From: Bacteroidota bacterium
GTDB taxonomy: Bacteria; Bacteroidota; Ignavibacteria; Kryptoniales; JAKASW01
NCBI GenBank assembly: GCA_021794075.1
Contig: JAJYRM010000019.1
Span: 1-46,261 of the forward strand
DNA: 46,261 bases
Direction of reading: 5' to 3'
Shown here: piece after piece, positions 10,250 through 36,208 of the stretch
Layout of the letters: every line of letters begins with the position of its first letter
Numbering within the stretch: position 1 is the first letter of the stretch
Translations under genes and position numbers: made by a program
The notes under the pieces: model-generated
Seen by the model: the letters and a program-made list of their open reading frames with translations, nothing else
What the model was told of the DNA's origin: nothing
Databases searched by the model: none

Positions 10250-12945
<2,696 letters not shown>

Positions 12946-19238: not shown

Positions 19239-19575
19239 CTGGGAAATCGGAACCGGTCGCCGGCACGGCGGAACTAATCGTTCGTCGGACGGAACTGGTA
19301 GTTGGGCCGACAGAATTTGTCGATTTCCGCACGAAATTGGATCTTTTTGCCGACGGGACCGGCTCTGTTCACGGAGGGCAAATTTGCTTTACAGAGGGGT
19401 GTCTTTGGGGAACACCAAACCGCCATCCTGAGCGAAACGAAGCGGAGCCTGGCTACCGGCAGGCAGGTCGAAGGATGAGCTTTCCTTTGTCACATCGTTT
19501 TCTTAAGATACAGCACAGACGGTTAGGGCATCGCCCGTCTGGCAATTGTCGAAAACGAAAATGTCGGGGGACATT
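19239..19575. other. Intergenic region with small hairpins
   Basis: Gap between the glnS terminator and the comM fragment. It contains a CATCCT-type repeat (listed separately), a GGTGT/ACACC hairpin near 19400 and an AGACGG/CCGTCT hairpin near 19518-19538. No convincing coding sequence, tRNA or promoter was recognised. Confidence 0.4.
19424..19477. repeat. CATCCT...AGGATG imperfect palindromic intergenic element
   Basis: A 54-base stretch begins CATCCTGAGCG and ends TCGAAGGATG, with complementary CATCCT/AGGATG ends and an internal GCCTG/CAGGC hairpin. This pattern resembles the short 'CATCCTGAGCGAAGCGAAGGATG' elements that recur between genes in many bacterial genomes. Only one copy was seen in this window, so repetitiveness here is from general knowledge, not from the sequence. 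Confidence 0.5.
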
Positions 19576-20640
19576 ATGCTTTCGCATGTTATGAGTGCGG
19601 CGACTTACGGCGTCAACGCGTTCATCGTCGACATCGAAACAAACGTCGGGGGTGGAGTATTCAGCTGGTGGATGGTCGGCCTGCCGGACAACGCGGTCAA
19701 GGAAAGCAGGGAAAGGGTCCTTACCGCGATCAAGAATTCTAATCTAAAGTACCCCGGGCATCAGATTGTGATTAACCTCGCGCCGGCAGATGTCCGCAAG
19801 GAGGGGAGCGCATTCGATCTACCGATAGCGATCGGAATACTCTCGGCGTCAGGTTCATTCGAAATGTCCGACCTCGATAAATTCATCGTCATGGGCGAGC
19901 TCGCGCTCGATGGATCTGTCAGACCTGTGCACGGTGTGCTCCCCATCGCGGTGGAAGCGAGGGAGAAAGGAATTCCCGCGATGATCATCCCGAAGGGCAA
20001 CGCGAGGGAGGCGGCGATGGTGGAAGGAGTGAACGTATATCCGGTTGAATCCCTTCTCGAAGCCGTTCAGCTTCTCGGCGGGGAGTATAAACTCCTCGAA
20101 CCTTTCAGGGTGGACAAGGAAGAGCTGTTCGGTGAGACGCACCGGTACCAGTTCGATTTCTCCGATGTGAAAGGTCAGGAGAACGTCAAGCGCGCGCTCG
20201 AGGTGGCGGCGGCGGGGGGACACAACGTGATAATGATAGGTCCGCCGGGTAGCGGGAAGACGATGCTCGCGAAGAGGCTGCCGACGGTGCTGCCGGACAT
20301 GACGTTCGAGGAGGCGCTCGAGACCACGAAGATACATTCGGTCGCGGGAATGCTGCCGGCGGATGCGGGACTCATCGCGACCCGGCCGTTTCGTTCGCCG
20401 CACCATACTATTTCCGATAACGCGCTGGTTGGCGGCGGCGCTATACCGAAGCCGGGAGAAATTTCACTGGCACATCACGGAGTTCTTTTCCTCGACGAAC
20501 TGCCCGAGTTCGAGCGGAGCGTTCTGGAAGTTCTCCGCCAGCCGATGGAAGACGGCCATGTCACAATAAGCCGGACAAAGATGTCGCTCGACTACCCGTC
20601 GAAGTTCATGCTTCTCGCTGCGATGAACCCATGTAGCTGC
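19576..20640 (+). pseudogene. comM: Truncated ComM/YifB-like Mg-chelatase AAA+ ATPase
   Basis: N-terminal about 355 residues of a ComM (YifB) protein, a hexameric branch-migration helicase used in natural transformation. It starts at the ATG at 19576 after GGGGG; the Lon-like N-terminal domain ([15 protein letters not shown]) and Walker A GPPGSGKT at 222-229 are intact, as is FLDELPEF (Walker B). The protein stops matching after NPCSC, where intact homologues continue with Gly-Tyr-Tyr/Phe-Gly-Asp and about 150 more residues holding the sensor and C-terminal domains. From 20641 the frame runs straight into an unrelated HTH protein without a stop. The lost part is not elsewhere in the window. 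This looks like an insertion or deletion junction, and the ATPase is probably non-functional. Confidence 0.85.
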
Positions 20641-21069: not shown

Positions 21070-21116
21070 ACGGCAATCTCTCCGGCTCCGCTTTTTGTGA
21101 CGGGAACCCGTTGCAA

Positions 21117-21482: not shown

Positions 21483-21657
21483 TCTCACTCCGAATTTCTA
21501 AACCCTAATTTACGAAGGGATTGAAGAGGACTCCAATTCCGAGTGAAGGAAGAGCTATTGCAAGAGTTTCCAATTTGATGCAATTCTCCACCCTTATCTA
21601 ACCCGTGCTGCGCCGATATGATGAATCTCAGTTCATCAAAAAAAAGGAGATGCCACG

Positions 21658-22365: not shown

Positions 22366-22372
22366 TGGTACA

Positions 22373-22405
22373 TAGCCTCACCATGATTGGTGGGGCTATT
22401 TTTTT
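22373..22405 (+). terminator. Rho-independent terminator of gene A (repeat copy 1)
   Basis: TAGCCTCACC at 22373-22382 pairs with GGTGGGGCTA at 22389-22398 (one G-U pair) over a six-base loop, followed by seven T. This is the first of three related hairpins in the island. It also abuts the stop codon of the decayed minus-strand fragment that follows. Confidence 0.9.
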
Positions 22406-22473
22406 GTAAATACGATGAAAGGTTTGAGCGATTGTTGGTTTACGATCTCTTTTATGCTACCAGACTCAGCCAT
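22396..22473 (-). pseudogene. N-terminal remnant of the membrane HEPN-like gene
   Basis: Reads MAESGSIKEIVNQQSLKPF and a few more residues before a stop inside the gene A terminator. The full gene at 23035-24879 begins its conserved part MAESGGINEILNNPTFRRF. Similarity extends upstream into the presumed promoter (shared CTTTGCG and TTTTTAGATG/TTTTTGGGGTG segments up to about 22580). It is a truncated duplicate of the 5' end of that gene, cut exactly at the terminator. Confidence 0.75.
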
Positions 22474-22594
22474 TATGGATTTTGTTCCCGCAAAGTAGAG
22501 ACAACTGAGGATTTCAATTCCAATGATGAATCCACCATTGTGAAGTTCAGACCCTGATTGACTTGCCGGATTTTTAGATGTAGAACAAAGATGA

Positions 22595-22876
22595 ATGGAG
22601 AAGCTTGGCGGGAAACTCGAAAGTGAGACCGAACGCATTCAACGGGAAAGGGCCCTGCTGGAGGAACGTTTGCAGAGCCTGATCGACAGAAAAGTTGAGG
22701 GTTTTGAGCTGGATGAGGTTGGATCGACCGTCTCAATAAGGTTTGATAACGGTGAAGTGTTGGAATTTAGTAGTTGGGATGCCCTCCATGATTTACCGTA
22801 TCCTGAAGGCGTCAGGGTTTATACCCCGGAAAAAGGAACCGAAAAGGCGGATACTGAATCCGGCAGCCTTGAATAA
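22595..22876 (+). CDS. Hypothetical protein with N-terminal coiled coil
   Basis: Small protein of 93 residues. The first 35 residues are a charged amphipathic helix (SETERIQRERALLEERLQ) likely to form a coiled coil; the rest is compact with short beta-like stretches (STVSIRFDNGEVLEF). No family recognised. The ribosome-binding site is weak (ACAAAGATGA), so translation is not assured. It lies between two copies of the duplicated membrane-gene 5' end and may be passenger DNA. Confidence 0.45.
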   Translation: MEKLGGKLESETERIQRERALLEERLQSLIDRKVEGFELDEVGSTVSIRFDNGEVLEFSSWDALHDLPYPEGVRVYTPEKGTEKADTESGSLE

Positions 22877-23034
22877 TGAGAAAGGCTCAGTTTCTGTACC
22901 AGCATCCGTTCGCCATCACTGTTATTTTCCCTATCCTTCCCAATTTTACATTCTCGATTTGTCGCCGCTCGGAGCCTAGAGACCTTGTCCGCAGTGGGCA
23001 CCTTTATTTTTTCTAATGGTTTGATAGAAAGCTT

Positions 23035-24879
23035 TCAGGTCGCCCGAGACTCTTCCGGGCTAGATTTACTCCACAAAGTACATAAATTAGTGGTTGGGAC
23101 ATTCTCTTCTCGTCTCAGCACTCCGGAACTGAGATTGATATATTCCAGGGAATTGCTCTGAACACTATTTAAGAACAGGATTTCTCCCTCCTTCATAATC
23201 ATAAAAGGGTACGCACTGAGGGCGAGATCATCGGGCGTGTTTTCAACCACCATGCACAGCTGTTCGCTTTTTGATTTGAGTGCCTCTCCGCCTTTTGATT
23301 GTAATGGAATTCTGGTCCATCCCTTCATTCTGCTCGATTCCGGGTCCTTCTTTCCCTTGACGATGGTACAATCGGTCAAAAGCGGTTTAAAATTCAACAC
23401 CATAAACAGGAATACCCTGTGGAATCTATCCCATAAAGGCGACACTTGAGCTTCTGTTACCGCGCCATGGCCACGGGTTATGTTACGAATTCGAACAAAC
23501 CAATCAAACCATTCAGCGAAAGTTATCGGTGGTGTCTCATGCCATTCCAAGCCTTGGGCAGACGCATCTTCAATCAGCTTGTGAAAGGAATCGTGCGGTG
23601 CGTGCCCTAGGAGCGATTTGATGGCCCGGCTGATTTTGTCGTCTTTGGCTACCCCGTTTAACATCTTCAAACGATTTACCCAATCGCCTAAGGTGGGAGG
23701 TCTCTTGAAAAAATCCAACGAAGGATCATGATCCGGAACTGACCATTGAGTGATTGAAAGATACATCACCGCGACTTTGACGAGGGCTTCCATGCAATCC
23801 AGCAACGCTATAAACCTCTCAACGTTGCTCTGTGATAGCCTGAAACGTAAGTAACAATCTGCGACTGGCGGGAAGCCTTGTCTTGCGATAAGCTGAATTA
23901 CCGATCTAGAGTCTTGGTCAAGGGCATCGTCCGAGTCGCCAATCGGAATAATGTTGGTTGTTAGTTGGTTTGTTAATTCAGTCACGATGGCAGATATGTT
24001 TTCTTCCTCTTGTTCCCTTGTTGACTCCACAAATTCAAAGTTTTGGATACCACGCCCTTCTATGAGATATGGCTCTGAATGGTGAGTAGATATTTGAACG
24101 AGAAAAATTTTCCCTGTGGAAAATTGGATGTAGGAATCAAGCATTTCCCTGAATTCATCTGTCATTTTATTGCCTGAGCGTACAACGACAATCATCGCGG
24201 GCGAACGTTTGACTGCGTACAGCGCATACTTCTCATCATGTTTGCGAAAAGAAAGAAGGTTCACGAAATAGAAAGGATGCGAGCCAATTGATTTCATTCG
24301 AGCCGTCAAGAAATTCAAGAGGATCCGTTTGCCGTAGAGCGTAGCAATACCCGGTTCCATGACAGCAACACCTGTCGCGCCCCAAGCGTTGATATTCTTT
24401 CCCGATTTGAAGTCTCGATAGTACATCTTCGGGACCATACTCTCGATAAGCAACGAGAATAGTCTGGAAATGGTGGAGAGCAGAATGAAGCCAAAGGCGA
24501 TGCCTCCACCGATGATCCAGCGGAGCGCGTTGTGGGGAAAAACATAAATAAGGATCACCACCCAGATTGCAAGACCGATAATCACCTGCCTCCGCATTGG
24601 GATGGAAACTTTCAATCCGGAAGCTTTGATTGCGATTCCCACGGGGAGAGAGAGCACTAGTAAAGAACCGATAAAAAGAAGCCCAATCTTTAATGGTAGC
24701 CAAGAGAACATGAAGGAAATGAATATGAGTAATCCGCCAAACGCCACGAAGACAGTTTGGAGTATCCAGATGAAGCGTCTGAATGTTGGATTGTTCAAAA
24801 TTTCATTTATTCCGCCAGACTCAGCCATGATGGACGTGATGCTCGCAAAGTTAGGTAATGGATGATCTAAATTCAACAT
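23035..24879 (-). CDS. Membrane-anchored protein with HEPN-like C-terminal domain
   Basis: Protein of up to 614 residues, no precise family recognised. The N-terminal third has four hydrophobic segments at about 40-60, 64-84, 98-114 and 117-140. A mixed alpha/beta region follows (about 200-300). A helical C-terminal domain (about 345-520) contains an RN-x4-H motif, Arg465 to His471 in IRNITRGHG, preceded by long helices and followed by DRFHRVFLFM. R-x4-6-H within such helices is the hallmark of HEPN domains, which are often RNases in phage defence and toxin systems. The start could be at Met18 (24828), where the duplicated fragment's similarity is strongest; neither start has a clear ribosome-binding site. 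It stands alone in the nuclease-rich island. Function as a membrane-tethered abortive-infection effector is inference. Confidence 0.7.
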   Translation of the reverse strand: MLNLDHPLPNFASITSIMAESGGINEILNNPTFRRFIWILQTVFVAFGGLLIFISFMFSWLPLKIGLLFIGSLLVLSLPVGIAIKASGLKVSIPMRRQVIIGLAIWVVILIYVFPHNALRWIIGGGIAFGFILLSTISRLFSLLIESMVPKMYYRDFKSGKNINAWGATGVAVMEPGIATLYGKRILLNFLTARMKSIGSHPFYFVNLLSFRKHDEKYALYAVKRSPAMIVVVRSGNKMTDEFREMLDSYIQFSTGKIFLVQISTHHSEPYLIEGRGIQNFEFVESTREQEEENISAIVTELTNQLTTNIIPIGDSDDALDQDSRSVIQLIARQGFPPVADCYLRFRLSQSNVERFIALLDCMEALVKVAVMYLSITQWSVPDHDPSLDFFKRPPTLGDWVNRLKMLNGVAKDDKISRAIKSLLGHAPHDSFHKLIEDASAQGLEWHETPPITFAEWFDWFVRIRNITRGHGAVTEAQVSPLWDRFHRVFLFMVLNFKPLLTDCTIVKGKKDPESSRMKGWTRIPLQSKGGEALKSKSEQLCMVVENTPDDLALSAYPFMIMKEGEILFLNSVQSNSLEYINLSSGVLRREENVPTTNLCTLWSKSSPEESRAT

Positions 24880-24948
24880 CGAGCCTGATGTTCGTGAAAT
24901 TCCGTTGGTTGATTTACCAAATTTTTGGGGTGTCGGAAACGGGGGATG

Positions 24949-25041
24949 GAGATGATGTTCAAAACCAAAAATTTTCAGAAGTTCTTGAATGACGTCGGGA
25001 AGCGGTACGGATTGTCGGCGAGGTCAGGAGATGAGATGTGA
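24949..25041 (+). pseudogene. C-terminal remnant of a gene A paralogue (repeat copy 2)
   Basis: Thirty codons, from Glu-Met-Met-Phe to Gly-Asp-Glu-Met-stop, match the last thirty codons of gene A at 22273-22365 at both protein and DNA level, including KRYGLS and SGDEM. There is no start codon or upstream homology, so it is the tail of a lost paralogue. It is followed by the same hairpin as gene A. Confidence 0.85.
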
Positions 25042-25048
25042 TGCTATG

Positions 25049-25080
25049 TAGCCTCACCATTTGGTGGGGCTATTATTTAT
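25049..25080 (+). terminator. Hairpin terminator, repeat copy 2
   Basis: TAGCCTCACC pairs with GGTGGGGCTA over the loop ATTT, followed by TTATTTATT. It is the same stem as behind gene A with a shorter loop, and now terminates only a gene fragment. Confidence 0.75.
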
Positions 25081-25124
25081 TGTGATTGCCTCACAACGAA
25101 GACCGGAGGAAATGCCCTTTGAAA

Positions 25125-25160
25125 AACAAAAACCTGAATGCATAGTGTCATTCAGGTTTT
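25125..25160 (-). terminator. Terminator of the RadC-like gene
   Basis: A perfect 12-base-pair stem, AAAACCTGAATG with CATTCAGGTTTT, encloses an eight-base loop. On the minus strand it is followed by TGTTTTTC and directly abuts the RadC stop codon. It is nearly symmetric and could stop transcription from either side. Confidence 0.85.
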
Positions 25161-25618
25161 TAGATGAGTCCCCGCTCACTGAAGCTCAGGTAACCATAGC
25201 CGTCAGAGACGATAAGATGGTCACGGAGTTCGATATCAAGAATCTTCCCCGCTTCCTTCAACTGCTTGGTTACCGCTATATCTTCGCTTGACGGTTCCAG
25301 ATTTCCTGATGGGTGATTGTGCGCGACGATAACCGAGTCGGCATTCACCATGATCGCCATCTTGAAGACTTCCCTTGGATGAACCAGCGATGAGTTGAGG
25401 ATTCCGATGGAGATCGTGTGTATGGCGATGGGTTTATTCGCCGAGCTGAGGTAGAGTCCGACCAAGTGTTTCCGGTCTGCACCCTTGAGATACTCGATTA
25501 AAATCTCTGCGGCGTCTTCCGGCTTGCGGATCACCTTCTCGGGCACCGGAACGTTCTTTTCCCGAACCAGCATCACCTTGTAGAGCGGAGTCTGGCAGAC
25601 AAGTTTCGCTTTTGTCAT
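25160..25618 (-). CDS. RadC-family JAB/MPN domain protein
   Basis: Protein of 152 residues made of a single RadC (JAB/MPN, DUF2466) domain without the N-terminal HhH segment of chromosomal RadC. The metal-binding JAMM signature is visible as HNHPSGNLEPSSED: His, His, Ser and Asp at about 100, 102, 110 and 113. Such short RadC proteins are frequent on plasmids, ICEs and prophages; despite the name their role in DNA repair is unproven. Two ATGs lie six bases apart; the inner one at 25618 has better spacing to AAGGG. A strong terminator follows. Confidence 0.9.
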   Translation of the reverse strand: MTKAKLVCQTPLYKVMLVREKNVPVPEKVIRKPEDAAEILIEYLKGADRKHLVGLYLSSANKPIAIHTISIGILNSSLVHPREVFKMAIMVNADSVIVAHNHPSGNLEPSSEDIAVTKQLKEAGKILDIELRDHLIVSDGYGYLSFSERGLI

Positions 25619-25710
25619 GGGCATGCACCCTTGGGGATTAGTTTGTGAAAGAACTATTCCCTTTAAGCGTATGGTAAATGGAACGCGGACATAAGACGGG
25701 TAAGATGGTC

Positions 25711-25778
25711 GGAAAGAGAAATTGTTGGCGAAATCGGGGGGATGCGATGATAGATAGCCCCACCATTTGGTCGGGCTA
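25711..25778 (+). repeat. Decayed third copy of the gene A end plus hairpin
   Basis: GTCGGAAAGAG...TTGTTGGCGAAATCGGG...GATGCGATGA resembles the end of gene A with several indels. It is followed by TAGCCCCACC-ATTT-GGTCGGGCTA at 25755-25778 (one mismatch in the stem), then TTGTTTTTA. It lies between the RadC-like and DUF3883 genes, about 700 bases from copy 2. Confidence 0.7.
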
Positions 25779-25801
25779 TTGTTTTTATAGCGTTCCTGCC
25801 C

Positions 25802-26782
25802 TCATTCAATTGTCACGTTTGCCGACACCACCTCCTCTGTCATCAGGCTTTTTCCGGTATTCTCATCCCTCCAGATGTTTTCTTCTGCGTCCCACAAGAA
25901 GTCGTTTACCTGTGGTGAACGAAGTGCATCGGTGACTATGCAGATTCTGTATCGTCGCTTTCTAGACTTGCTTTTCTGATACTCATTTGGACTCAGATTG
26001 ATTGTTGCATTATCCGCTGGTTGGTTTGTGCCCTTCACCTCGATCAGAAGCTTGTCTGATTTGGAACGCGCCTCCAGATCATAACCAACGTGGTCTCTTT
26101 CGACAGATATGACATCATATCCTTGATCGCTGTAATGTTTCGCAGCCACTTCAATTGCCGCTCGTTCAATCTTTAATTTCAAAACCTGATCTAATGGCGG
26201 TTTCGTGCCGGGCCTCGGAGGAAAGTATTTGCCAGCTTCCACACTTAGTGTGTAAGCGTGGAGTTTGTTCTTAAATGCGATAACCTCTTGACGATTAGAG
26301 TCCAAGAACGACACAAAGGTCTGAGCACCAAATCCTTTGTGCAAAACCGGCACTGTGAAGGACCGGCGGTGAGGCGGCACGACATATTTGTCGGAGTCTC
26401 TTGCAGATATGATCCATCGCGGATTGATCCGTTCGTTTCTATACTGAAACGACCGGCCCTTCAGTGGGTTTTGGAGTCTACGATAGACAGTTGCGTTCTT
26501 GTACCAACCGACGATCACCGATCCTCGACTCGACCGAGCACGCCAGGCAACTAAGACATTGTCTACCTTGTCTGTTGCGGCTGAGTCCAGTCGTGAGATA
26601 CTGATCGTTCCGGTTCTTAGTTGCACATAGCCGTATACCATTCCATGGTAAGGGAGGAAATTAATTGCTTCATGACCAAAGCCGTGTTCGCGAACGTAGG
26701 CGCCGCCGTGGCGCGGAATATCATCGGAAGTGACACCGCAATAGTATTTCATCCACGATACATTACAGAGCAGCATTTTCAT
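25802..26782 (-). CDS. DUF3883 (PD-(D/E)XK-like) nuclease with N-terminal recognition-like domain
   Basis: Protein of 326 residues. The C-terminal DUF3883 domain shows a restriction-endonuclease-type active site: Asp235 in VGYDLEAR and Glu248-x-Lys250 in LLIEVKGT, followed by INLSPNEY. The N-terminal half (MKYYCGVTSDD, GHEAINFLPYHGMVYGYVQ, VLVAWRA, IVGWYKNATVY) resembles a domain fused to several predicted restriction enzymes, possibly for sensing modified bases; that reading is tentative. The start is the ATG at 26782 with AAGGGG six bases upstream. The neighbour upstream, 33 bases away, is another small nuclease-like gene. Role in defence is inference. Confidence 0.8.
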   Translation of the reverse strand: MKMLLCNVSWMKYYCGVTSDDIPRHGGAYVREHGFGHEAINFLPYHGMVYGYVQLRTGTISISRLDSAATDKVDNVLVAWRARSSRGSVIVGWYKNATVYRRLQNPLKGRSFQYRNERINPRWIISARDSDKYVVPPHRRSFTVPVLHKGFGAQTFVSFLDSNRQEVIAFKNKLHAYTLSVEAGKYFPPRPGTKPPLDQVLKLKIERAAIEVAAKHYSDQGYDVISVERDHVGYDLEARSKSDKLLIEVKGTNQPADNATINLSPNEYQKSKSRKRRYRICIVTDALRSPQVNDFLWDAEENIWRDENTGKSLMTEEVVSANVTIE

Positions 26783-26815
26783 ATTTTTCCCCTTAGATGC
26801 CTGATACGCCATGTC

Positions 26816-27160
26816 CTATTCATACCATACGATTTTATTATCCTCGCATTTAAAACTCTTTAGAAACATGATTTTCACGTCATCGGGCACATTAGACGTG
26901 TCTGTGCCAGCTGGAACAGCCAATATCTTTTCCACGATCTCGACACCTCGACCGGAAAGCTTTTTGGTATAGGAATTCAGCTGATTTAGAATCGCTTGGG
27001 AGATATTACAAGTCGCTTTCACTTCTACTATCGCTCGTTGGATTTTTCCACGCACCTTTCTTTCAACCGTAAAATCGGGTTCATAGCCAACCCATCTGTC
27101 TTTCCTATAAATCTCCCAACCTTTGTAAGCAGGAAATTCCGCTCTCAAATTTTTGTGCAC
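26816..27160 (-). CDS. Small PD-(D/E)XK nuclease-like protein, interrupted by an early amber codon
   Basis: About 114 residues. Asp29 in YEPDF and Glu46-x-Lys48 in VEVKAT form a PD-(D/E)XK-like site. The frame shown begins with GTG at 27160. The same frame extends upstream through a TAG (27161-27163) to an ATG at 27193, ten codons before the TAG, which has a near-perfect AAGGAGG seven bases ahead. The original gene probably began there (Met-Thr-Phe-Arg-Glu-Asp-Asp-Met-Tyr-Ser) and gained a nonsense codon. Termination at TAG followed at once by GTG could allow re-initiation. It may therefore be a pseudogene or a weakly translated gene. The DUF3883 gene lies 33 bases downstream. Confidence 0.6.
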   Translation of the reverse strand: MHKNLRAEFPAYKGWEIYRKDRWVGYEPDFTVERKVRGKIQRAIVEVKATCNISQAILNQLNSYTKKLSGRGVEIVEKILAVPAGTDTSNVPDDVKIMFLKSFKCEDNKIVWYE

Positions 27161-27275
27161 CTAAGAGTACATATCATCTTCTCGAAATGTCATTGTTTAA
27201 CCTCCTTAGCGCCAAGCAGATTCATTATACTTGACTTGACAGCAACGCCACTCCATATAACATAATGTGGTGCCA

Positions 27276-28085
27276 TTATTTCACTCGATTGTCGATTCTC
27301 CGGAGAACATAGGAACCAAGGGTAAACAAATCGAGGGCATCCTCCTCAGACATTTGCCAAATAATTCGCGCGGCATGTCCCGTTGGATTACGAAAGGTTC
27401 CGAAGAGTCCCTTTGTTAAGTTCACAAACCCTCGTTGCTCTGACTGTTCGGTCTCCGTAACGAAATTATTGATCTTGATTCTGGGATTATCGCTGCCAAG
27501 CGCTTCGTCAATCAGTGTTGCCCCATCGCTTGTTAATCCTGTTATTGTCCTGATCGTTTCAGCGATACTCTTGGTTGCTTCAAGGACTGCGTGGAAATAG
27601 TTATCCGCTACGAGTTCGGCTCTGCAAAAGCGCAGAAGCTCAGAGTGAAGATTGCGCTTGAGAAGGTTCTCTTTTAAATGGGAAGCGCGAGCTTGTGCCT
27701 CAGAAAGATTAGTAGCCTTGACGACGGTGTGAAACCTGCCATCGTCCGCAAACCTGAGACCTTTGAAGGCAAGAATCACATTAATGCTCTCAAGTTTCTG
27801 AGTGTAGAACTCTTGTTTGCCAACAAACCTTGCGGGAGCCAACGCCTTAGAGATAAAAGCCAAGGCCATGTTCCCTTTCTGATCTTGATTCTGGCGATTA
27901 ACCAAAGCGTTGAAAAGTCGCTTCCACTTTGTCATCCCCGGATCTGTATCTTGGACACCGATCTGCGATAGTATATAGCCTATCTCAGAGCCGGTTAACC
28001 CGGTCTTAGTTTCGGCGAGTTCCTTGCATAGGTGCGTCAATTCCTCGGCGGAGAATGCTTCCCAGTCTCGATTTACTTTGCCCAT
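27276..28085 (-). CDS. TIGR02391 / Hypoth_Ymh family HEPN-like protein
   Basis: Protein of 269 residues. The C-terminal half matches TIGR02391 (Hypoth_Ymh), which belongs to the HEPN superfamily: LVADNYFHAVLEATKSI, LTSDGATLIDEA and the key GTFRNPTGHA with Arg232-x4-His237. The motif is the predicted RNase active site. The N-terminal part (ELTHLCKELAETKTGLTG, IGVQDTDP) is typical of family members. These genes cluster with restriction and abortive-infection genes. AGGGTAG precedes the start. It is transcribed with the flanking minus-strand nuclease genes. Confidence 0.85.
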   Translation of the reverse strand: MGKVNRDWEAFSAEELTHLCKELAETKTGLTGSEIGYILSQIGVQDTDPGMTKWKRLFNALVNRQNQDQKGNMALAFISKALAPARFVGKQEFYTQKLESINVILAFKGLRFADDGRFHTVVKATNLSEAQARASHLKENLLKRNLHSELLRFCRAELVADNYFHAVLEATKSIAETIRTITGLTSDGATLIDEALGSDNPRIKINNFVTETEQSEQRGFVNLTKGLFGTFRNPTGHAARIIWQMSEEDALDLFTLGSYVLRRIDNRVK

Positions 28086-28177
28086 CTACCCTGTCTTACT
28101 GAAGTTTTGCAAGTAACAATTGCGATGAACAATTTCCACAAGGTGGGCACCAGTTCAATTTGGATATTCAATTGAAG

Positions 28178-29176
28178 TCATTTCGCCTTCAAGTTGTTCT
28201 GCGCCCACTCTCTTACCTTCTTATAAGCAATATACTCACAGACCGCCTCACAGATGGAAGGAATGTGGCCTCCGGGAATGTCGGCGAAGTAGATGGGTAG
28301 ATAACCATTGCGTTCAGCGTAAGAAATCGGAGCTTCAGCCTGATCGTAGTCCTCGGCGATAACTAATTCCCATTTCATTCCGAACTTAACCTGACCCTCA
28401 TGAAGAATCTCAACCGATGGGGAAACCAAATGCCCCGCACTCCATGAGTAGCGACCATCTGAGGACTTGCCTCGATAAATCCCATACGAATATGACGTGA
28501 AGAAGCGACCATCACCGGGGAAGGAAGAGTCCACTGAGGCAGTGAACCATGGAGCTTTAATGCCGTCTTGATCTGGAGAATGGAGACCAAGCCCATAATT
28601 GTTGAGCAGTTCCATTTGAATATTTCTCGTCAAAGGGAATGGAAAATCTAAGTCGAAACGAAAAGTTGGGTCCAAGCTTGGGTCTAAAATACCCCCGCGA
28701 GTCAAATGTTGGATTTCCTCCGGTGTCATCTCCTCCACTTCAGACTGAATCTCTTGTTGTATCCTCGGATATTCCTTTTTCCAATTCACGAATCTGTATG
28801 CGACGAATTGCACGACGGAAATAGAATCATATTGGTCAAGTTCGGCGTCAGATACTCTCAATAAAGGAAACTGCGCGATTGAACAAATTCGATTTTTTCT
28901 AATGTCCTGTTCCATCTTCTTTGCGTACAGAAAATGGTTGGGGCCATCAAATTCGACAGCGAACTCAGGCAAACTACCAGCGTCGCAAATGACAAAATCG
29001 AACTTGCCGTTTTTATACATGGCACGGTCAGAATACCTGAGGTCTGCCAGCTGCAAGTTTATGACATCACGGATGAGCTGCTGGGGGAATATCCGATACC
29101 CACTGCCTGCAAGTGCCTTTTCGAGTTCGTCGCGCGTAACGGACTCACTTGAATTAAGTATCTTCTTTACTTTCAT
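28178..29176 (-). CDS. DUF2726 nuclease-like domain protein
   Basis: Protein of 332 residues. The N-terminal half shows the DUF2726 pattern: a FDFVICD strand, FAVEFDGPNHF and KNRICSIAQFPLLRV, a layout similar to Vsr/PD-(D/E)XK nucleases (Asp, Glu-x-Asp and Asn/Arg residues). The C-terminal half (about 190-332) is not recognised; it contains many aromatic residues and a SFPGDGRFFTSYSYG stretch. Some DUF2726 proteins lie in defence loci. No strong ribosome-binding site; AGGAATTCC lies upstream. Gaps to neighbours are 92 and 59 bases, so co-transcription is plausible. Confidence 0.75.
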   Translation of the reverse strand: MKVKKILNSSESVTRDELEKALAGSGYRIFPQQLIRDVINLQLADLRYSDRAMYKNGKFDFVICDAGSLPEFAVEFDGPNHFLYAKKMEQDIRKNRICSIAQFPLLRVSDAELDQYDSISVVQFVAYRFVNWKKEYPRIQQEIQSEVEEMTPEEIQHLTRGGILDPSLDPTFRFDLDFPFPLTRNIQMELLNNYGLGLHSPDQDGIKAPWFTASVDSSFPGDGRFFTSYSYGIYRGKSSDGRYSWSAGHLVSPSVEILHEGQVKFGMKWELVIAEDYDQAEAPISYAERNGYLPIYFADIPGGHIPSICEAVCEYIAYKKVREWAQNNLKAK

Positions 29177-29235
29177 CTCATGGAATTCCTGGCGTTACAT
29201 GTTTTTACATAGTGTCGCCATCCGACAAGGCGAAA

Positions 29236-30204
29236 TCAAATGCCACGGCTGATTTCAAATGTTGACACTGGATTATTAGTAAGAGGGATAATCTTTTTGC
29301 CGTCGAACCTGAATCCCGTTCCGATCGAATTTTCAATCGCATCGATTGACGATGGATCCTCGTCAATCATTGTTGTTACCACTTCTCGAAATAATCTGTA
29401 CTTCATCTTTTGTGTTGCTGAGGAATTCTGCTCGCCTTTGAGAATGACCCTCGCAAAATTCAAAGAAAAGTTGCTGAAGGCGTCTGCTACACCTATGAGG
29501 GGAAAATTTGCGGAATCTGTAATATGGATTTGTTTGATTCTCGCGCTGACTTTCAGAAAGAGTTTCTTCCAAGAGTTCAGTATGATTGCTATTGCTTCTT
29601 TGACGGTCAAGAGCGCGCCAACCGACGAGCCTGCAAGCGAAACCTTTTCCTCTGCCAAGTTTTGGAAATTCTTTTTTCTGTCAATATGGATATAAAGCTG
29701 CATGTCTTCGTCGATTCCTTTGGCTTTCTTGAGAAGTTCGATCGTAGGAAAGGCTATGTAGGAATAGAGTTCACGGTATTTTTTTGCTAGTCTCGCACCT
29801 TGAGGGAGTTTTTCGTTTTTCTCAAATGCTTGCGTATGGGCGCTGAACACACTGGTTATCATGGCTTGCGAGGTCAAGAAGCTCAGAACTCTTTGGAAGT
29901 TAGCCCTTCTTAGTTCATGGATAGCTATTTGGAAGAGGCTACGGTAGATCCTTTCGTAGGTTGTCATATCATCCAAGGTACCATCGCTGAGGGCCAAAGC
30001 CCGCGAATGCAAGACTGAAATATGTTCTTTTCTACACAACTCATCCACTTTCTTCTCCAGTTCTCTATAGGCAGACTCATCCAATAAGACAACAGTGAAA
30101 CCTACAAAGTCAAGTTCTGAATCGCCCCCATCGTCAATGAGGAGATGAAGGTCTCTCACTCGCGGCACGAGAAGTCCCGCTTTGTTCAACCGGTAATTAT
30201 CCAT
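29236..30204 (-). CDS. DUF3800-like predicted RNase H-fold protein
   Basis: Protein of 322 residues. The opening LHLLIDDGGDSELDFVGFTVV, the central LYIHIDRKKN and the late DSANFPLIGVADAFSNF contain acidic residues in the order expected for DUF3800 proteins, which are thought to have an RNase H-like fold. The assignment is by motif order only and remains uncertain. It begins 18 bases after the glycosylase-like gene stop, so the two are surely co-transcribed and may work together. The ribosome-binding site is weak (AGAGATAT). Confidence 0.6.
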   Translation of the reverse strand: MDNYRLNKAGLLVPRVRDLHLLIDDGGDSELDFVGFTVVLLDESAYRELEKKVDELCRKEHISVLHSRALALSDGTLDDMTTYERIYRSLFQIAIHELRRANFQRVLSFLTSQAMITSVFSAHTQAFEKNEKLPQGARLAKKYRELYSYIAFPTIELLKKAKGIDEDMQLYIHIDRKKNFQNLAEEKVSLAGSSVGALLTVKEAIAIILNSWKKLFLKVSARIKQIHITDSANFPLIGVADAFSNFSLNFARVILKGEQNSSATQKMKYRLFREVVTTMIDEDPSSIDAIENSIGTGFRFDGKKIIPLTNNPVSTFEISRGI

Positions 30205-30222
30205 ATATCTCTGCGAATGCCC

Positions 30223-30912
30223 TTAGTTGTCGTGCTCGTATGTCCACTTGTCTTCGTGGACACAGAAGCCCTTTATCCAACACATTGAACACAAACGATA
30301 GCCTCTACTGTATCTATGTCGGGTGCCTGAGGCTTTTGTGCAAAAGACTTTGCCGATGAACCAAAGATAATCAAAGACGATGCGCGGTATTCGTTCGGCA
30401 GATTGCGTGGCTAGCAACTCTTGGAATGACTGGTATCTGTTCGAGGTAGTTGGCTCTCCAACACTTGGGACATTGTCCAAGTGAAGACAGTCTGTGAAAA
30501 TACGCCGAACATGGGTGTCTATTGGGACAAGGAGATGCGGTTCAATATCGTGGTTAGCCTCACCATAGTGTATAAGCATCTCAAGAATTAAGCTTCCTAT
30601 TTTCTGTCCAACCCCGACCCTCGTTGGTGGTGAGTACACGACCTCCTGAAGGTTATTCCATTCGTCGTTTTCGAGGTATCCATTTATGTCGGCAAACTTG
30701 GAATGGAAGTACCGCTTTGCTCGACGCAGTTCGTCGGTCCTTATTCTTTGTCGTGTGTGCAAACAGAAGTCAATGACTCGGTCGAAATTCTCCTGATTAG
30801 CAAGCATTTCATTGCGGGCGACGTGGATTTGTGACAGCACGTATCTCTCCATGAAAGACACCATGAATGACCGCTTCGTTGAAAGTACTCGCGAGACATC
30901 TTCTAAAAGCAT
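30223..30912 (-). CDS. Endonuclease III-like HhH-GPD DNA glycosylase with Fe-S cluster
   Basis: Protein of 229 residues. VGVGQKIG (Lys104) matches the helix-hairpin-helix in which the catalytic lysine of endonuclease III lies, and VPIDTHVRRI (Asp132) matches the catalytic aspartate segment. The C terminus has Cys191 and Cys208-x2-Cys211-x5-Cys217; the last three have the endonuclease III spacing, while the first is further away (16 instead of 6 residues). Family members remove damaged, mismatched or modified bases and can nick the strand. A strong AAGGAGATG precedes the start. It sits between a DNA methyltransferase and a DUF3800-like gene, which suggests a role tied to modified DNA rather than general repair; that is inference. 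Confidence 0.75.
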   Translation of the reverse strand: MLLEDVSRVLSTKRSFMVSFMERYVLSQIHVARNEMLANQENFDRVIDFCLHTRQRIRTDELRRAKRYFHSKFADINGYLENDEWNNLQEVVYSPPTRVGVGQKIGSLILEMLIHYGEANHDIEPHLLVPIDTHVRRIFTDCLHLDNVPSVGEPTTSNRYQSFQELLATQSAERIPRIVFDYLWFIGKVFCTKASGTRHRYSRGYRLCSMCWIKGFCVHEDKWTYEHDN

Positions 30913-31026
30913 ATTACATCTCCTTAATTAGCACAGCAACTAACAATTCAGTAGTCGCATCGCGTTTGTTTCTTCTTCGGATGGTACCCATTTTCATCAA
31001 AAGTTATCCTGTCGTCGCATTGAAAA

Positions 31027-31920
31027 TCAAGTCGCATTTAGGATCGTAGGTATGATAAGCTTCTTTACGTACTTTTTGTTGAGTTCGATCCCCATCGGGA
31101 TTCTTCCCAACTGTTGTGTGGATTGCAAGGTGGTTCCCGACCCGGCGAACGGATCAAGAATAATGTCACCGGCTTTACTTCCCGCCTTGATACAAATCTC
31201 CGGAATCTCAGAAGGAAAGGTCGCGGAGTGGTTACCTCGGGATCCACTTTTCGGAATCGTCCACACGGATCGTTTGTTCCGACCTAGGGGATGACACATG
31301 TGTTCAGGGTTTCTGTAATGAGGACGTTCTGAAAGTGATTTGATTTTTCGATAACCTTTGTACTTATATGCCATCCGCTTGATGCTCTCAGGTTTATGCG
31401 GCTCTCGGATCGCATCTGCATTGTAGTAATAGTTTTTGCCTTTCGTCATTAAGAAGATGTATTCGTGTGCTCGTGTCGGCCGATCATTCACCCCTTCCGG
31501 CATTGCATCCGGCTTGTGCCATATTACGTCGGATCGCAGATACCAGCCGTCTCGCTGGAGAGCAAAAGCAACCCTCCATGGAATCCCGACAAGTTCCTTC
31601 GTCTTCACGCCGCAGTGCGCCCAACCTCTGCAATACGTATCTCCTAAGTTGATCCACAATGTCCCGTCGTCTTTCAGCACCCGGCGTACTTCATGGAACA
31701 CCGAGACAAGCTTCTCGGTATATTCCTCGGGTGTACTTTCCAAACCTATCTGCCCTTTAACCCCATAATCCTTGAGCTTCCAATAAGGGGGACTCGTAAC
31801 GCAGCACTGGACGATCTTGTCCGGCAATTCTTTAAGAATTTGCAAAGCATCTCCATGAAACACCCCACCGCCACCGACAGAGAAGAAGCTGTCCCTCAGA
31901 TTTTCGTGTACCTTGAACAT
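31027..31920 (-). CDS. Site-specific DNA methyltransferase (beta-group, TSPPY type)
   Basis: SAM-dependent DNA methyltransferase of 297 residues. Motif IV is TSPPYW at 42-47 and motif I is FAGSGT at 258-263, the IV-before-I order of the beta group. The Ser-Pro-Pro-Tyr form is more common in N4-cytosine enzymes than N6-adenine enzymes, but both occur. No obvious target-recognition insert can be assigned. There is no recognisable cognate restriction gene beside it; the next gene downstream, after 114 bases, is a glycosylase. It starts four bases after the stop of the TraD-like gene, which suggests they share a transcript. Confidence 0.9.
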   Translation of the reverse strand: MFKVHENLRDSFFSVGGGGVFHGDALQILKELPDKIVQCCVTSPPYWKLKDYGVKGQIGLESTPEEYTEKLVSVFHEVRRVLKDDGTLWINLGDTYCRGWAHCGVKTKELVGIPWRVAFALQRDGWYLRSDVIWHKPDAMPEGVNDRPTRAHEYIFLMTKGKNYYYNADAIREPHKPESIKRMAYKYKGYRKIKSLSERPHYRNPEHMCHPLGRNKRSVWTIPKSGSRGNHSATFPSEIPEICIKAGSKAGDIILDPFAGSGTTLQSTQQLGRIPMGIELNKKYVKKLIIPTILNAT

Positions 31921-31924
31921 TCCG

Positions 31925-33268
31925 TCAAAGGAGGCGGTTCTGACCCGTTTTTTCCTTTTCGTCAGTTCTCTGGTCTACATGAATCCCGCTTTTCCGGGAA
32001 AGAATAATCCTTTCCACGGATTCTCTTGACCTCCCATATTGCCGTCTTGACTCGTTTATGATGTCCGCACCATGTGGCACGTCTATTGCTGCCAGTGAAA
32101 GCGTCGTCGCGCTGAACGGCTGCGATGTCACCCCGTCAATCATGAGTCTCAAATAAATGTGGTAGTTCGGGAGATTCGTGAAGTCAGTTTCCTTGAACGG
32201 ATGAAACTCCCGTGCGAGGTATTCCGCATCTTCGGCTCCGACCCTGAACGAAATGATCGAGCCGACGTTCCCGAAGATGGCAGCCCGCACCTTCTGGTCT
32301 ATCTGCGACTGGTGTTGATGACTGACCGTGAGGGAGAGGTGATACTTGCGGCTTTCGCTCAGGATGTCAGCGAACGAACTTGTAATGAAGGAATGGAACT
32401 CATCGACGTACAGGTAAAAGGGGATCCGCTGAGCTTCGGGGACTTCGGCTCTTCCCAATGCAGTGAGCCATATTTCCGTGAGGAGCAGGGAACCCAGGAG
32501 CGATGTGTTGTCCTCGCCGATCTTGCCTTTTGAAAGATTGGCGATCAGTATCTTCTTTTCGTCCATAATCTCCTTGAGATTGATGGTGCTTCTCGACTGT
32601 CCGATGATATTCCTCAAAGGCAAATTGACCAGGAACTGTCCCACCTTGTTGAGGATAGGGGATATGGCCTCCGACCGGAGCCATGCCGAATACTTGTCGA
32701 ACTCGTTGTACCAGAACGAGAGAATCTCCCTCTGTTGGAGATGCGTGAGGACTTCTTTCCTGAATGCGGGGTCGGTGAGAAGCCTCGGCAGATCAAGGAG
32801 CGTACTCCCGGGATATTCGAGGAGCGTGAAGAGCGAATAGCGGAGGATGTGTTCCAGTCTCGGTCCCCAGAACTCGGTCCAGATCTTCCTGAATACGGAA
32901 ATGATCCCCGATACGATGAGGTGCTGCTTTTCATAGGGTACTTTCTCCAGGGGATTGAAGCCGACGGGATAATCCAGATCGGCGGGATTGAAATAGACCA
33001 CGTCGCCGATCCTTTCCTTCGGGATGCGGTTCAGGATATCCTCGGAGAGGTCCCCGTGCGGATCGAGGAGGCCGATCCCGTTACCTGCTCGGATGTCCGA
33101 CAGTGCCATGTTCGCGATGAGACTGCTTTTGCCGGTGCCCGTTTTCCCGATGATGTACATGTGGCCCCTCCGGTTTTTCTCCTTGATCCCGAACATCTTC
33201 CTGATGTCACGCCAGTTCGTGACGGCGATGGGGGTGACCTGTTCCTTGGGGGTATGCTTTTCATCCAT
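31925..33268 (-). CDS. VirD4/TraD-like conjugative DNA-transfer ATPase (DUF87/TraG-type)
   Basis: P-loop ATPase of 447 residues. Walker A is GKTGTGKSS at about 41-49 and Walker B is YVDEFHSF; DPHGDLSEDIL, LSESRKYHLSLTVSHQH and FRVGAEDAEYLA are typical of type IV coupling-protein-like ATPases of mobile elements. No N-terminal membrane anchor is present, as in many soluble DUF87-type members. I start at the ATG at 33268 because the upstream 30 in-frame residues look non-coding; no clear ribosome-binding site. It is divergent from the plasmid-type operon at 33407. It may pump DNA during transfer, but no relaxase or other secretion genes are in view. Confidence 0.85.
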   Translation of the reverse strand: MDEKHTPKEQVTPIAVTNWRDIRKMFGIKEKNRRGHMYIIGKTGTGKSSLIANMALSDIRAGNGIGLLDPHGDLSEDILNRIPKERIGDVVYFNPADLDYPVGFNPLEKVPYEKQHLIVSGIISVFRKIWTEFWGPRLEHILRYSLFTLLEYPGSTLLDLPRLLTDPAFRKEVLTHLQQREILSFWYNEFDKYSAWLRSEAISPILNKVGQFLVNLPLRNIIGQSRSTINLKEIMDEKKILIANLSKGKIGEDNTSLLGSLLLTEIWLTALGRAEVPEAQRIPFYLYVDEFHSFITSSFADILSESRKYHLSLTVSHQHQSQIDQKVRAAIFGNVGSIISFRVGAEDAEYLAREFHPFKETDFTNLPNYHIYLRLMIDGVTSQPFSATTLSLAAIDVPHGADIINESRRQYGRSRESVERIILSRKSGIHVDQRTDEKEKTGQNRLL

Positions 33269-33406
33269 GTTCGGATGATAAAGGCTTGGTCGGTCTTCAG
33301 ATAAGAGGGGCGGAAGAGCCGGAAGGGACATCGTTGCCCGCCTTATGCACCATGGCACGCGCAGTTATGCTTCATGTCAGAATCATTAACAAAAGGAGAA
33401 ACTGAC

Positions 33407-33826
33407 ATGAAAAAGACGACGAAGCTCATCGAGGTGCAGACCCCGAAAGGAGAACCGCTTTTCCAGTTCAAGATCGTGGAGAGTGTACTGTCGGAAGGCG
33501 AGGTCTTGGCGAACCCGCAACCAGCGGTAAGCCCCGCCCCGTCAAAGCCGCCAATCCCGTCCGGTGGAAATGGCACGAAGCCTCAGAATGGCAACGGAAA
33601 ACAGACCACAGAAGAAATGATGACGGAACCGCAGAAGAAGTATCTCTTCCGCATCATGGCCGAACGCGGGAAGACCGGAGACGAAGCTCACGACCATCTG
33701 AAGGGCCTCTTCAAAGTCAAGACCCTGAAGGAAGTCACGAAGCTCGAAGCGAGCCAGATGATCGAGACACTTCTCTCGTTTTCGCCCGCACAAGGGAACG
33801 GAGGCGGCGATGGACCATCTTTCTAG
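33407..33826 (+). CDS. Plasmid/phage-type protein with small C-terminal helical domain
   Basis: Protein of 139 residues. The first 35 residues are beta-like (KLIEVQTPKGEPLFQFKIVE), followed by a Pro/Gly/Asn-rich linker (about 45-75) and a C-terminal helical domain: TEPQKKYLFRIMAERG, then KEVTKLEASQMIETL. This tail resembles a small domain at the end of several phage recombination and single-strand-DNA-linked proteins. Function unknown. The ATG at 33407 follows AAAGGAGAA; the frame opens 11 codons earlier without a ribosome-binding site. It overlaps the nuclease gene by 17 bases. Confidence 0.7.
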   Translation: MKKTTKLIEVQTPKGEPLFQFKIVESVLSEGEVLANPQPAVSPAPSKPPIPSGGNGTKPQNGNGKQTTEEMMTEPQKKYLFRIMAERGKTGDEAHDHLKGLFKVKTLKEVTKLEASQMIETLLSFSPAQGNGGGDGPSF

Positions 33827-34619
33827 CAGCCAGATCAACCTCTTCCTTCTCTGCGGTCTCAAGTACCGGTACCAGTATGTCGAGAAACGGCCGAAACCGT
33901 TCAGGTCATCGTCACTGGTCTTCGGGAGTGCCCTGCATTCCACCATTTCCTGGGTACACAAGCATGAGATGGAAGGAAAGAAGGTATCCACGGATTTGGC
34001 CTTGAGGATATTCGACGCCGACTGGTACAGCCAGAAGACCGACACGGAGATCCGGTTCAAGGATAACGAGAGAGAATTGGGTCTCATCATCCTCGGGAAA
34101 CAGATGCTCCAGATGTTCCTCGAAGAACCGAGGGAGCCGGTAAAGGGAACGGAAGTTCCTTTCACCGTTCCTTTGGTCAATCCGAGGACGAAGGAGAACT
34201 TAGGCATCACTCTGGAAGGATTCTTTGATGTCATCGGGTCTGATGATGTGATAACCGACTACAAGACTTCCGGGGCGACCATGAGTCAGGACGATGTCGA
34301 CAACCACCTCCAGCTCACCGCTTACGGTTATGCCTACGAGCAGCTCTTCCACAAACCCCCGAAAGGGTTCAGGATCGTGAACTTCGTGAAGAACAAGAAA
34401 CCGAAGATGGCGACATTCGACACCAAGCGGACGAGCGCCCACTATGAGGCATTTTTCTTTCTCGTGAAAGAAGTCCTGAAGGCCATCAAGGTCGGCACGT
34501 TCCATCCGAGACCCGGATACTGGTGCAGGGACTGTGAATACGGAGATGTCTGCCCGTTAACCAGAGAGACCAGGGCCAAACCCGAAAAAGCGAAAGAGGT
34601 TGAGGCTCATGGACGGTAA
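33810..34619 (+). CDS. Cas4/AddB-like PD-(D/E)XK exonuclease with Fe-S cluster
   Basis: RecB-type nuclease of 269 residues (PDDEXK_1 family). LSSSQINLF opens the domain; His43 in GSALH, Asp140 in FFDV and Asp150-x-Lys152 in TDYKTS form the active site, and QLTAYGYAY is the family's Q-motif. Cys15, Cys239, Cys242 and Cys248 have the arrangement that binds a 4Fe-4S cluster in AddB and Cas4. It probably processes DNA ends for recombination or replication of the element. No CRISPR array or other cas gene is nearby. GGAGG precedes the start and it overlaps both neighbours. Confidence 0.88.
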   Translation: MDHLSSSQINLFLLCGLKYRYQYVEKRPKPFRSSSLVFGSALHSTISWVHKHEMEGKKVSTDLALRIFDADWYSQKTDTEIRFKDNERELGLIILGKQMLQMFLEEPREPVKGTEVPFTVPLVNPRTKENLGITLEGFFDVIGSDDVITDYKTSGATMSQDDVDNHLQLTAYGYAYEQLFHKPPKGFRIVNFVKNKKPKMATFDTKRTSAHYEAFFFLVKEVLKAIKVGTFHPRPGYWCRDCEYGDVCPLTRETRAKPEKAKEVEAHGR

Positions 34620-34857
34620 CGGAATGAGAAAACTTCGGAAGGTCCAGTATGGGCACTACGAAGACAAAGCCGCCAAGCCTCATCCCGTAATACGGATTGC
34701 CGGCAAGTACCTTGAGCGGTTCGGGTTCAGGATAGGGGACACGGTCGAAGTCGAAATCGCCGACGGAAGGATCATGGTGCAGAAGTTATCCGAGCCGGAT
34801 GGCAATTACACCAGCGCGGATGCGAATCCAAGAGAGTCAGGCGAAGAGAAGCGGTAA
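34609..34857 (+). CDS. SymE-like / AbrB-fold small protein
   Basis: Protein of 82 residues. The central part (HPVIRIAGKYLERFG, GDTVEVEI, RIMVQKL) resembles SymE, the SOS-induced toxin with an AbrB-like swapped-hairpin fold, in the order Pro-x-Ile-Arg-Leu-x-Gly-x-x-Leu. SymE in E. coli is a nucleoid-condensing or RNase-like toxin controlled by antisense RNA; no antisense RNA was identified here. The ATG at 34609 overlaps the nuclease gene by 11 bases after TGAGG; a TTG at 34600 is less likely. Confidence 0.7.
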   Translation: MDGNGMRKLRKVQYGHYEDKAAKPHPVIRIAGKYLERFGFRIGDTVEVEIADGRIMVQKLSEPDGNYTSADANPRESGEEKR

Positions 34858-34909
34858 TCAGTCTTTTCGCTTGATCTAATTCATTCACCAAAAACCAAAG
34901 GAGAAAGCT

Positions 34910-35134
34910 ATGGCTAACGAGAATGGCCTCTATTCCACAGTGGTCAAGTCGGGAAAGAACACGTACTTCGTTGACGTGAAAGAAGCGAAGAACGGGAACA
35001 AGTACCTCGCGATCACCGAACTGCAAGCCGGAGACCGTGAAAGGAAAAACACCATCAGGGTGTTCGGCGAGGCAATCGGCAAGCTCAGGGACGCAGTTGC
35101 AGAAGCGTCTGCCACTATTCCTGAGCAGCAGTAA
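34910..35134 (+). CDS. PUR-alpha-like (DUF3276) nucleic-acid-binding protein
   Basis: Protein of 74 residues with one PUR-like domain: YSTVVKSGKNTYFVDVKEA, KYLAITEL and a C-terminal helix. Similar small DUF3276 proteins in Bacteroidota bind single-stranded DNA or RNA. AAAGGAGAA seven bases upstream supports the start. A perfect hairpin terminator follows. It belongs to the plasmid-type gene run starting at 33407. Confidence 0.75.
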   Translation: MANENGLYSTVVKSGKNTYFVDVKEAKNGNKYLAITELQAGDRERKNTIRVFGEAIGKLRDAVAEASATIPEQQ

Positions 35135-35139
35135 CCAAC

Positions 35140-35176
35140 ATGTCCGTCCGTGGTTTCATGGACGGACATTTCTTTA
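35140..35176 (+). terminator. Rho-independent terminator
   Basis: ATGTCCGTCC at 35140-35149 pairs perfectly with GGACGGACAT at 35160-35169 over a ten-base loop, followed by TTCTTTA. It separates the PUR-like gene from the DUF932 gene. Confidence 0.85.
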
Positions 35177-35203
35177 ATCACTAATCAATAAGGAGAATCA
35201 ATC

Positions 35204-36208
35204 ATGCCGCATAACATTAACGTCACGAACGGAGGACCTTCGATGATGTACGTCGGAGAAGCGCCCTGGCACGGTCTCGGAACCAAGCTCGACAAACCTG
35301 CCACTGCGGAGGAAGCCATCCAAGCAGCGGGACTTGATTTCACCGTTAGTAAGTTTCCTCTCTTGGCGTCAACGAATGGTCTTTCACCTGAGAGTCATTT
35401 CCTTTCTGTCAATAGTCACTTCGCTACCGTGAGAACGGATACAAAGAAAGTCTTGGGTGTAGTAGGTTCCCGTTATGAGCCTATCCAGAACAAAGATGCT
35501 TTCACGACGTTCGATGCTCTGGTAGGTGAAGGTGAAGCGATCTACCACACGGCAGGTGCGCTCGGGAAAGGTGAACGCATCTGGCTTCTCGCGAAGCTTC
35601 CCGACTACATCAGGGTCAACGGGAACGACATCGTGGAGAAGTACTTGCTTCTCGTGAACTCGCATGACGGAAGCAGCACGGTAAGAGTGAAGCTGACCCC
35701 TATCAGAGTCGTTTGTGAAAACACGCTTTCACTCGCATTAAGTGGTGCTGAACAAGAAGTTCACGTCAGGCATACGCTGAACGCCAAAGAGAAGCTCAAG
35801 GAAGCCCACGAAATCCTCGGCCTTACGAACAAACTTTATAGTCAGCTTGATGCGATATTCAATCGCATGGGCGATACGAAGATGGAGCAGCCAGCATTAA
35901 CTGATTACATCAAGACCGTCTTTCCCGAGAATCCGGAATCCAAGGATCAATCTTGGGTCAAGAAGGTTCATGACGCAGTCTTTGAGTTAGCCGAATCCGG
36001 CGAAGGCGCTGAGATGACAAGAGGGACGCTCTGGGGAGCGTACAACGCGGTGACGGAGTACGTCGATCACTACCGAAATGCAAAGGGAGACGAAACTCAG
36101 CGATTGAAATCGATGTGGTTCGGTTCAGGAGAGAGGATCAAGAAGAGTGCGTTTCGATCCGCCGTCAACTTGTTGGAACATGAACTCACTTTACCGACCG
36201 GTACTTAA
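35204..36208 (+). CDS. DUF932 / phage-plasmid-like protein (TIGR03299)
   Basis: Protein of 334 residues matching DUF932 (TIGR03299 'phage/plasmid-like protein'): PWHGLGTKL near the start, VLGVVGSRYEPIQN, GERIWLLAKLP, VNSHDGSSTVRVKLTPIRVVCENTL. The family is widespread on plasmids and phages and has no established role. Start supported by AAGGAGAA. A strong terminator follows, and this is the last clearly plasmid-like gene of the island. Confidence 0.9.
   Translation: MPHNINVTNGGPSMMYVGEAPWHGLGTKLDKPATAEEAIQAAGLDFTVSKFPLLASTNGLSPESHFLSVNSHFATVRTDTKKVLGVVGSRYEPIQNKDAFTTFDALVGEGEAIYHTAGALGKGERIWLLAKLPDYIRVNGNDIVEKYLLLVNSHDGSSTVRVKLTPIRVVCENTLSLALSGAEQEVHVRHTLNAKEKLKEAHEILGLTNKLYSQLDAIFNRMGDTKMEQPALTDYIKTVFPENPESKDQSWVKKVHDAVFELAESGEGAEMTRGTLWGAYNAVTEYVDHYRNAKGDETQRLKSMWFGSGERIKKSAFRSAVNLLEHELTLPTGT

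Follow-up and report, generated by a model that had tools for sequence, protein, structure and literature searches.

Base excision directed against phages has so far been described for enzymes of the uracil-glycosylase fold (Brig1, Brig2 and Brig3), and base excision in restriction for enzymes of the PabI fold. Brig1 and Brig3 are defence glycosylases located in defence islands (PMC11078745, PMC13160076). Brig1 resembles family 4 uracil-DNA glycosylases (UDG), and a role as an extra layer of defence has been proposed for it (PMC11078745). The principle of a restriction glycosylase, which excises a base at unmethylated sites, is known from PabI (PMC10273834). Our literature search on HhH-GPD glycosylases in defence islands yielded work on the Brig and PabI types only. 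The glycosylase-like protein described here shares with Brig1, Brig2 and Brig3 a possible role in base-excision defence against phages as well as a location in defence islands. However, its fold appears to differ from that of Brig1, so the precedent is a functional one only. Like the PabI type, it is a glycosylase-type enzyme encoded near a DNA methyltransferase, but its predicted fold is different and the methyltransferase partner is not conserved.

The gene lies in a window (the whole stretch of DNA analysed) of 46,261 nucleotides. Three genes stand next to each other on the minus strand: a gene of a beta-class amino DNA methyltransferase (31027..31920, 297 aa), an HhH-GPD-type DNA glycosylase/AP-lyase-like gene (30223..30912, 229 aa) and a gene of a 322 aa protein (29236..30204). 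The first two are separated by 114 bases, and the third starts 18 bases downstream of the second. The glycosylase-like gene has an ATG start with a strong ribosome site, AAGGAGATGTAATATG. A preliminary description had placed the three genes and the 18-base spacing correctly; it also proposed that they could be one modification or restriction unit, a reading that the comparisons below do not support. A scan for promoters and terminators found sites no more frequent than in shuffled sequence, so the operon limits could not be deduced from it.

The three genes belong to a mobile element integrated in comM. The truncated comM (19546..20631, plus strand) forms the left junction of the element; it is broken at the codon ...LLAAMNP (base 20631), and two other genomes (G009 and G063) have the identical break codon with a serine recombinase element sitting there. 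Of the serine recombinase, the window retains at the junction no more than a trace of its end (element 19546-36208). Six related elements share a backbone of DUF932, PDDEXK nuclease, GemA-like and TraD-like genes. In the window this backbone is made of the GemA-like, PDDEXK_1 nuclease, small and DUF932 genes (33374..36208, plus strand) and of the TraD/HerA-like ATPase (31925..33358, minus strand), which is conserved in five sister elements. Between the TraD-like gene and the methyltransferase gene downstream of it there are only 4 bases. At its other end, the variable cargo slot is bordered by a RadC-family gene (25160..25624, minus strand, PF04002), 86% identical to the copy in the sister element of the same genus.

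Besides the three genes, the slot holds further cargo genes on the minus strand. The next one after the 322 aa gene encodes a DUF2726 protein with a nuclease-like N-terminal half (28178..29176, PF10881 E 3e-11). It is followed by a TIGR02391/Hypoth_ymh protein (27276..28085) that matches the PADLOC model PD-Lambda-3_B with E 1.6e-84 and whose usual partner was not recognised. The last is a NOV_C-domain protein (25802..26812, PF13020 E 3.2e-14) with weak matches to the defence proteins TmtA and HmaA.

The occupancy of the slot differs among the six elements. The methyltransferase is found in two of them, one of which has no glycosylase, while the glycosylase and the DUF3800-like gene (as the 322 aa gene had been labelled) occur in the window's element only. 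For example, in the same-genus sister element the TraD gene is followed by a methyltransferase 75% identical to that of the window, then by other genes with RadC beyond, and the other two members of the trio are missing. The elements in G009, G005, G010 and G063 lack the methyltransferase altogether; in G063 the recombinase comes after TraD with no notable cargo gene in between. None of the five other elements carries the glycosylase, DUF3800-like, DUF2726, TIGR02391 or NOV_C genes. The cargo from NOV_C to the glycosylase has a G+C content of 0.41-0.48, compared to 0.51-0.54 for most of the backbone. Since the six elements have one backbone, with the methyltransferase in two and the glycosylase in one, and since the G+C content of the cargo is lower, the glycosylase-like gene is best explained as independent cargo in a variable slot of the comM-integrated element. 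Its position beside the methyltransferase gene is, likewise, best explained by stacking of cargo and not by a functional pairing.

The preliminary description had named a gene order not conserved beyond this genome as one thing that would refute its reading, and we found the order not to be conserved. The trio was also rejected as a candidate conserved operon, given that its order is kept neither in the sister elements nor around the homologues of the glycosylase; the DUF3800-like gene adjoins none of the five other homologues. Thus, the tempting reading of the three adjacent genes as one system has to be corrected to mere stacking of cargo in a mobile element.

The methyltransferase is certainly a beta-class amino methyltransferase. 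The PF01555 match (E 4.8e-54) and the TSPPYW motif bear out its earlier description as an SPPY-type enzyme, and the motif TSPPYW precedes DPFAGSGTT, as is the case for beta-class enzymes of type II restriction-modification (R-M) systems. Judging by the TSPPY motif, N4-cytosine is probably the likelier target. A sequence search of the PDB gave relatives of this enzyme, and hundreds of its relatives are phage-borne. The methyltransferase M.Pac25I, 44.7% identical to that of the window, adjoins an XcyI-family restriction endonuclease, and searches with Pfam and PADLOC matched no known restriction endonuclease family beside the window's enzyme.

The DUF3800-like label of the 322 aa protein was not borne out. 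The protein had no matches in Pfam or the other family libraries, and a PF12686 search of its own genome was matchless at E<=1e-5. Its score against a DUF3800 profile (two reference members) was 13.0, compared to a shuffled mean of 13.7. What is left is a resemblance seen by eye in the IDDGGD and VAD motifs. We found no homologues of this protein among 395 genomes of the phylum and none in plasmids, and it is described here as a protein of unknown family.

With respect to the glycosylase-like protein, no matches were found in Pfam, NCBIfam, PADLOC and PHROGs, including the models PF00730, PF09171 and PF03167. Curated family models can miss a divergent protein. Searching the PDB by sequence, with the protein alone or with profiles of three and five sequences, produced chance matches only. 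On the other hand, a profile-profile alignment of five homologues with the host's three EndoIII-type proteins scored 32.4, far above the scores of 200 column shuffles (mean 12.8, sd 2.4, max 23.7). This alignment matches Lys104 with the catalytic lysine and Asp132 with the catalytic aspartate, and the Fe-S cysteines fall on the last cysteines of the family.

Structure models, built from three sequences and of middling quality (pLDDT 65 and 74), point to the same superfamily. The AlphaFold2 model of a homologue with 58% identity (pLDDT 74) is helical and HhH-GPD-like, and all 50 of the 50 PDB matches listed for it have the HhH-GPD fold. The best match was AGOG (Z 9.0, rmsd 3.8 over 174 residues), followed by archaeal OGG2 (Z about 8), MutY (7.1) and EndoIII-3 (6.7). 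For the window protein itself the model was poorer (pLDDT 65, best Z 7.1). Z values of 8-9 can be ordinary among helical proteins and the Foldseek E-values were close to 1, so the case for the fold is made by the consistency of the matches and by no single score. The PabI and Brig families did not appear in the fold lists of the models, an absence that does not exclude either family.

We observed that residues Q103, K104, D132, C208, C211 and C217 are invariant across the six homologues, and hence also the C-terminal pattern C208-x2-C211-x5-C217. The first putative ligand, C191, is a cysteine in five of the six proteins and a histidine in the remaining one. The profile score far above the shuffles, the uniform fold matches and the invariant lysine, aspartate and three cysteines lead us to conclude that the protein is very probably a divergent member of the HhH-GPD DNA glycosylase superfamily. 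The earlier assignment of catalytic roles to Lys104 and Asp132 agrees with this conservation and with the alignment to the EndoIII residues. The label of an endonuclease III-like glycosylase is backed by the profile and fold comparisons and found no backing among the family models. As for the Fe-S cluster claimed before, the three invariant cysteines make it plausible at the C-terminus, while the first ligand is less regular.

Similarities and differences with the described families could be specified further. The archaeal AGOG/OGG2 enzymes are the best fold matches (Z 8.0-9.0, model of the 58% homologue) and also have a catalytic lysine and aspartate; still, the identity is 11-16%, there are no PF09171 or PF00730 matches, and, unlike AGOG/OGG2, the window family has an EndoIII/MutY-type C-terminal cysteine cluster and a defence or mobile context. 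With the [4Fe-4S] enzymes EndoIII, MutY and Mig.Mth the family shares the aligned positions of the lysine and the aspartate and the spacing C-x2-C-x5-C of the last three cysteines. It differs from them in having a longer insert between the lysine and the aspartate, in the lack of family-model matches, and in the spacing after the first cysteine, which varies from x5 to x18 in the family (with the His replacement in one member) and is x16 in the window protein versus x6 in EndoIII. Weak profile relatives were TIGR02757 and archaeal AGOG/TIGR03252-like proteins (L032:1363-2154 and L021:1495-2259), which give a hint of where within HhH-GPD the family branched off.

No name for the family seems to exist in the libraries searched, and it is rare. 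Full-length members were present in four of the 391 genomes of the class. Scans of genome contigs gave a protein with 58% identity from a metagenome-assembled genome labelled Aenigmatarchaeota (L018), together with a contig (L019) of the genome G325, already among the four of the class; viral contigs gave one further homologue (L062). These three were detected by the alignment-based scans only, and single-sequence scans of the genome and viral collections found none. A tblastn search of phages and plasmids with the glycosylase and a 31% homologue found none either.

The neighbourhoods of the homologues vary in composition. In L018, the glycosylase is preceded by a fragment of a HerA-like ATPase, a gene for 274 aa that overlaps a methyltransferase gene, and an HSDR_N gene; the methyltransferase is of the beta class and 27% identical to that of the window. 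The HSDR_N nuclease-type domain is fused there to a SeqA C-terminal-like domain (L018:2734-3813, PF03925 E 5.2e-7), and the protein could possibly be a nuclease that reads hemimethylated DNA. In G734, a type I R-M system (HsdM, HsdS, HsdR) in divergent orientation lies 60 bases from the homologue, which is followed by a gene of the UDG superfamily (L033:9930-11364, PF03167 E 2.6e-6). Two glycosylase-fold genes are thus adjacent to each other next to a type I system. The G045 homologue has a type III Mod-Res pair 6.5 kb away within a larger defence-like cluster, and the L062 homologue adjoins a prophage integrase; terminase and portal genes lie farther along. In G325 the gene is solitary among metabolic genes. 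Overall, a defence or mobile context was seen in five of the six members, a raw count from a small sample that is no more than suggestive of a link between the family and defence loci.

Our preferred reading, held tentatively and judged slightly less probable than all its rivals together, is that the protein is a stand-alone defence glycosylase/lyase carried as cargo independent of the methyltransferases. The combination of lysine and aspartate is an established signature of bifunctional glycosylase/lyases in EndoIII and OGG1, and its conservation argues that the present protein, too, is probably bifunctional. Asp132 would activate the attack and the hairpin Lys104 would form a Schiff base, after which the strand would be nicked by beta-elimination; the C-terminal cysteine cluster would hold the Fe-S. 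The target may be a modified or otherwise foreign base of incoming phage or plasmid DNA, excised by the glycosylase alone. The host methyltransferases would not be its partners: the methyltransferases near the homologues vary in type, and those of types I and III come with their own nucleases, so the glycosylase is unlikely to be the restriction half of any of them. That defence or mobile genes recur around it is in line with an extra layer of defence, the role proposed for Brig1. Of the earlier proposal for the trio a narrower part is left: excision of foreign-modified bases is possible for the glycosylase alone, whose relatives usually stand in defence or mobile loci. Against the defence reading stand the solitary homologue in G325, the small number of known members (six), the purely functional nature of the Brig precedent and the middling models.

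A more specific form of the proposal is doubtful but deserves mention: an undescribed HhH-GPD family of Fe-S type might act in stand-alone anti-phage excision of modified phage bases. Such a family may have arisen independently of the Brig enzymes with their uracil-glycosylase fold. If true, defence would have drawn on repair glycosylases on more than one occasion, with HhH-GPD besides the UDG and PabI folds, and a phage base modification may be what the small enzyme recognises.

The main rival is a mobile enzyme of base-excision repair, acting on 8-oxoG, oxidised pyrimidines or deaminated bases as an accessory gene with no role in defence. We regard it as rather unlikely, yet worth serious attention, given that the nearest folds (AGOG, OGG2, MutY and EndoIII-3) all belong to repair enzymes, that the catalytic lysine and aspartate are kept, and that one homologue sits alone in a metabolic region. 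However, the host already encodes three HhH-GPD proteins above the family cut-off, and the gene is rare, patchy and mostly confined to defence or mobile loci.

It is improbable that the protein works in PabI-like restriction as the partner of the N4-cytosine-type methyltransferase, excising a base at unmethylated sites. The 114-base gap on one strand and the methyltransferases near the L018 and G734 homologues are in line with such a partnership, but the closely related methyltransferase of the sister element has no glycosylase beside it, one homologue has no methyltransferase nearby, and the methyltransferases that do occur are unrelated in type (a beta-class enzyme of 27% identity, an HsdM of type I, a Mod of type III), types I and III having nucleases already.

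Even less probable is a role in DNA hypermodification, where an HhH-GPD fold adds a group to a base with no base removal. The phage amino acid:DNA transferases (PUGT/gp46) do have an HhH-GPD-like fold: PUGT (8z2m) matched the model with Z 5.3 and rmsd 5.4, and two such transferases were among the weak viral matches. Still, PUGT ranked under AGOG, OGG2 and MutY, the lysine and aspartate are kept as in lyases, and the group transfer of PUGT/gp46 is to hypermodified thymine; the element in the window shows neither an hmdU kinase nor a thymidylate-synthase-like gene nor anything else of such a pathway. Least probable of all is a Mig/Vsr-like mismatch glycosylase that would repair the deamination product of a neighbouring methylated cytosine, since, for all the match to a thymine-DNA glycosylase (1kea, Z 6.6) and the adjacent methyltransferase, the latter belongs to the amino (N4/N6) class, which does not give rise to T:G mismatches, and the pair is not conserved. 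The preliminary description had itself judged both PabI and Mig to be poor fits, and we share that judgement.

Elsewhere in the window, a SAM riboswitch (Rfam RF00162) was located at 10246-10391, scoring at its gathering score, and pieces of group II intron RNA (Rfam RF02005 and RF00029) overlap ORFs at the right end (43371-44105).
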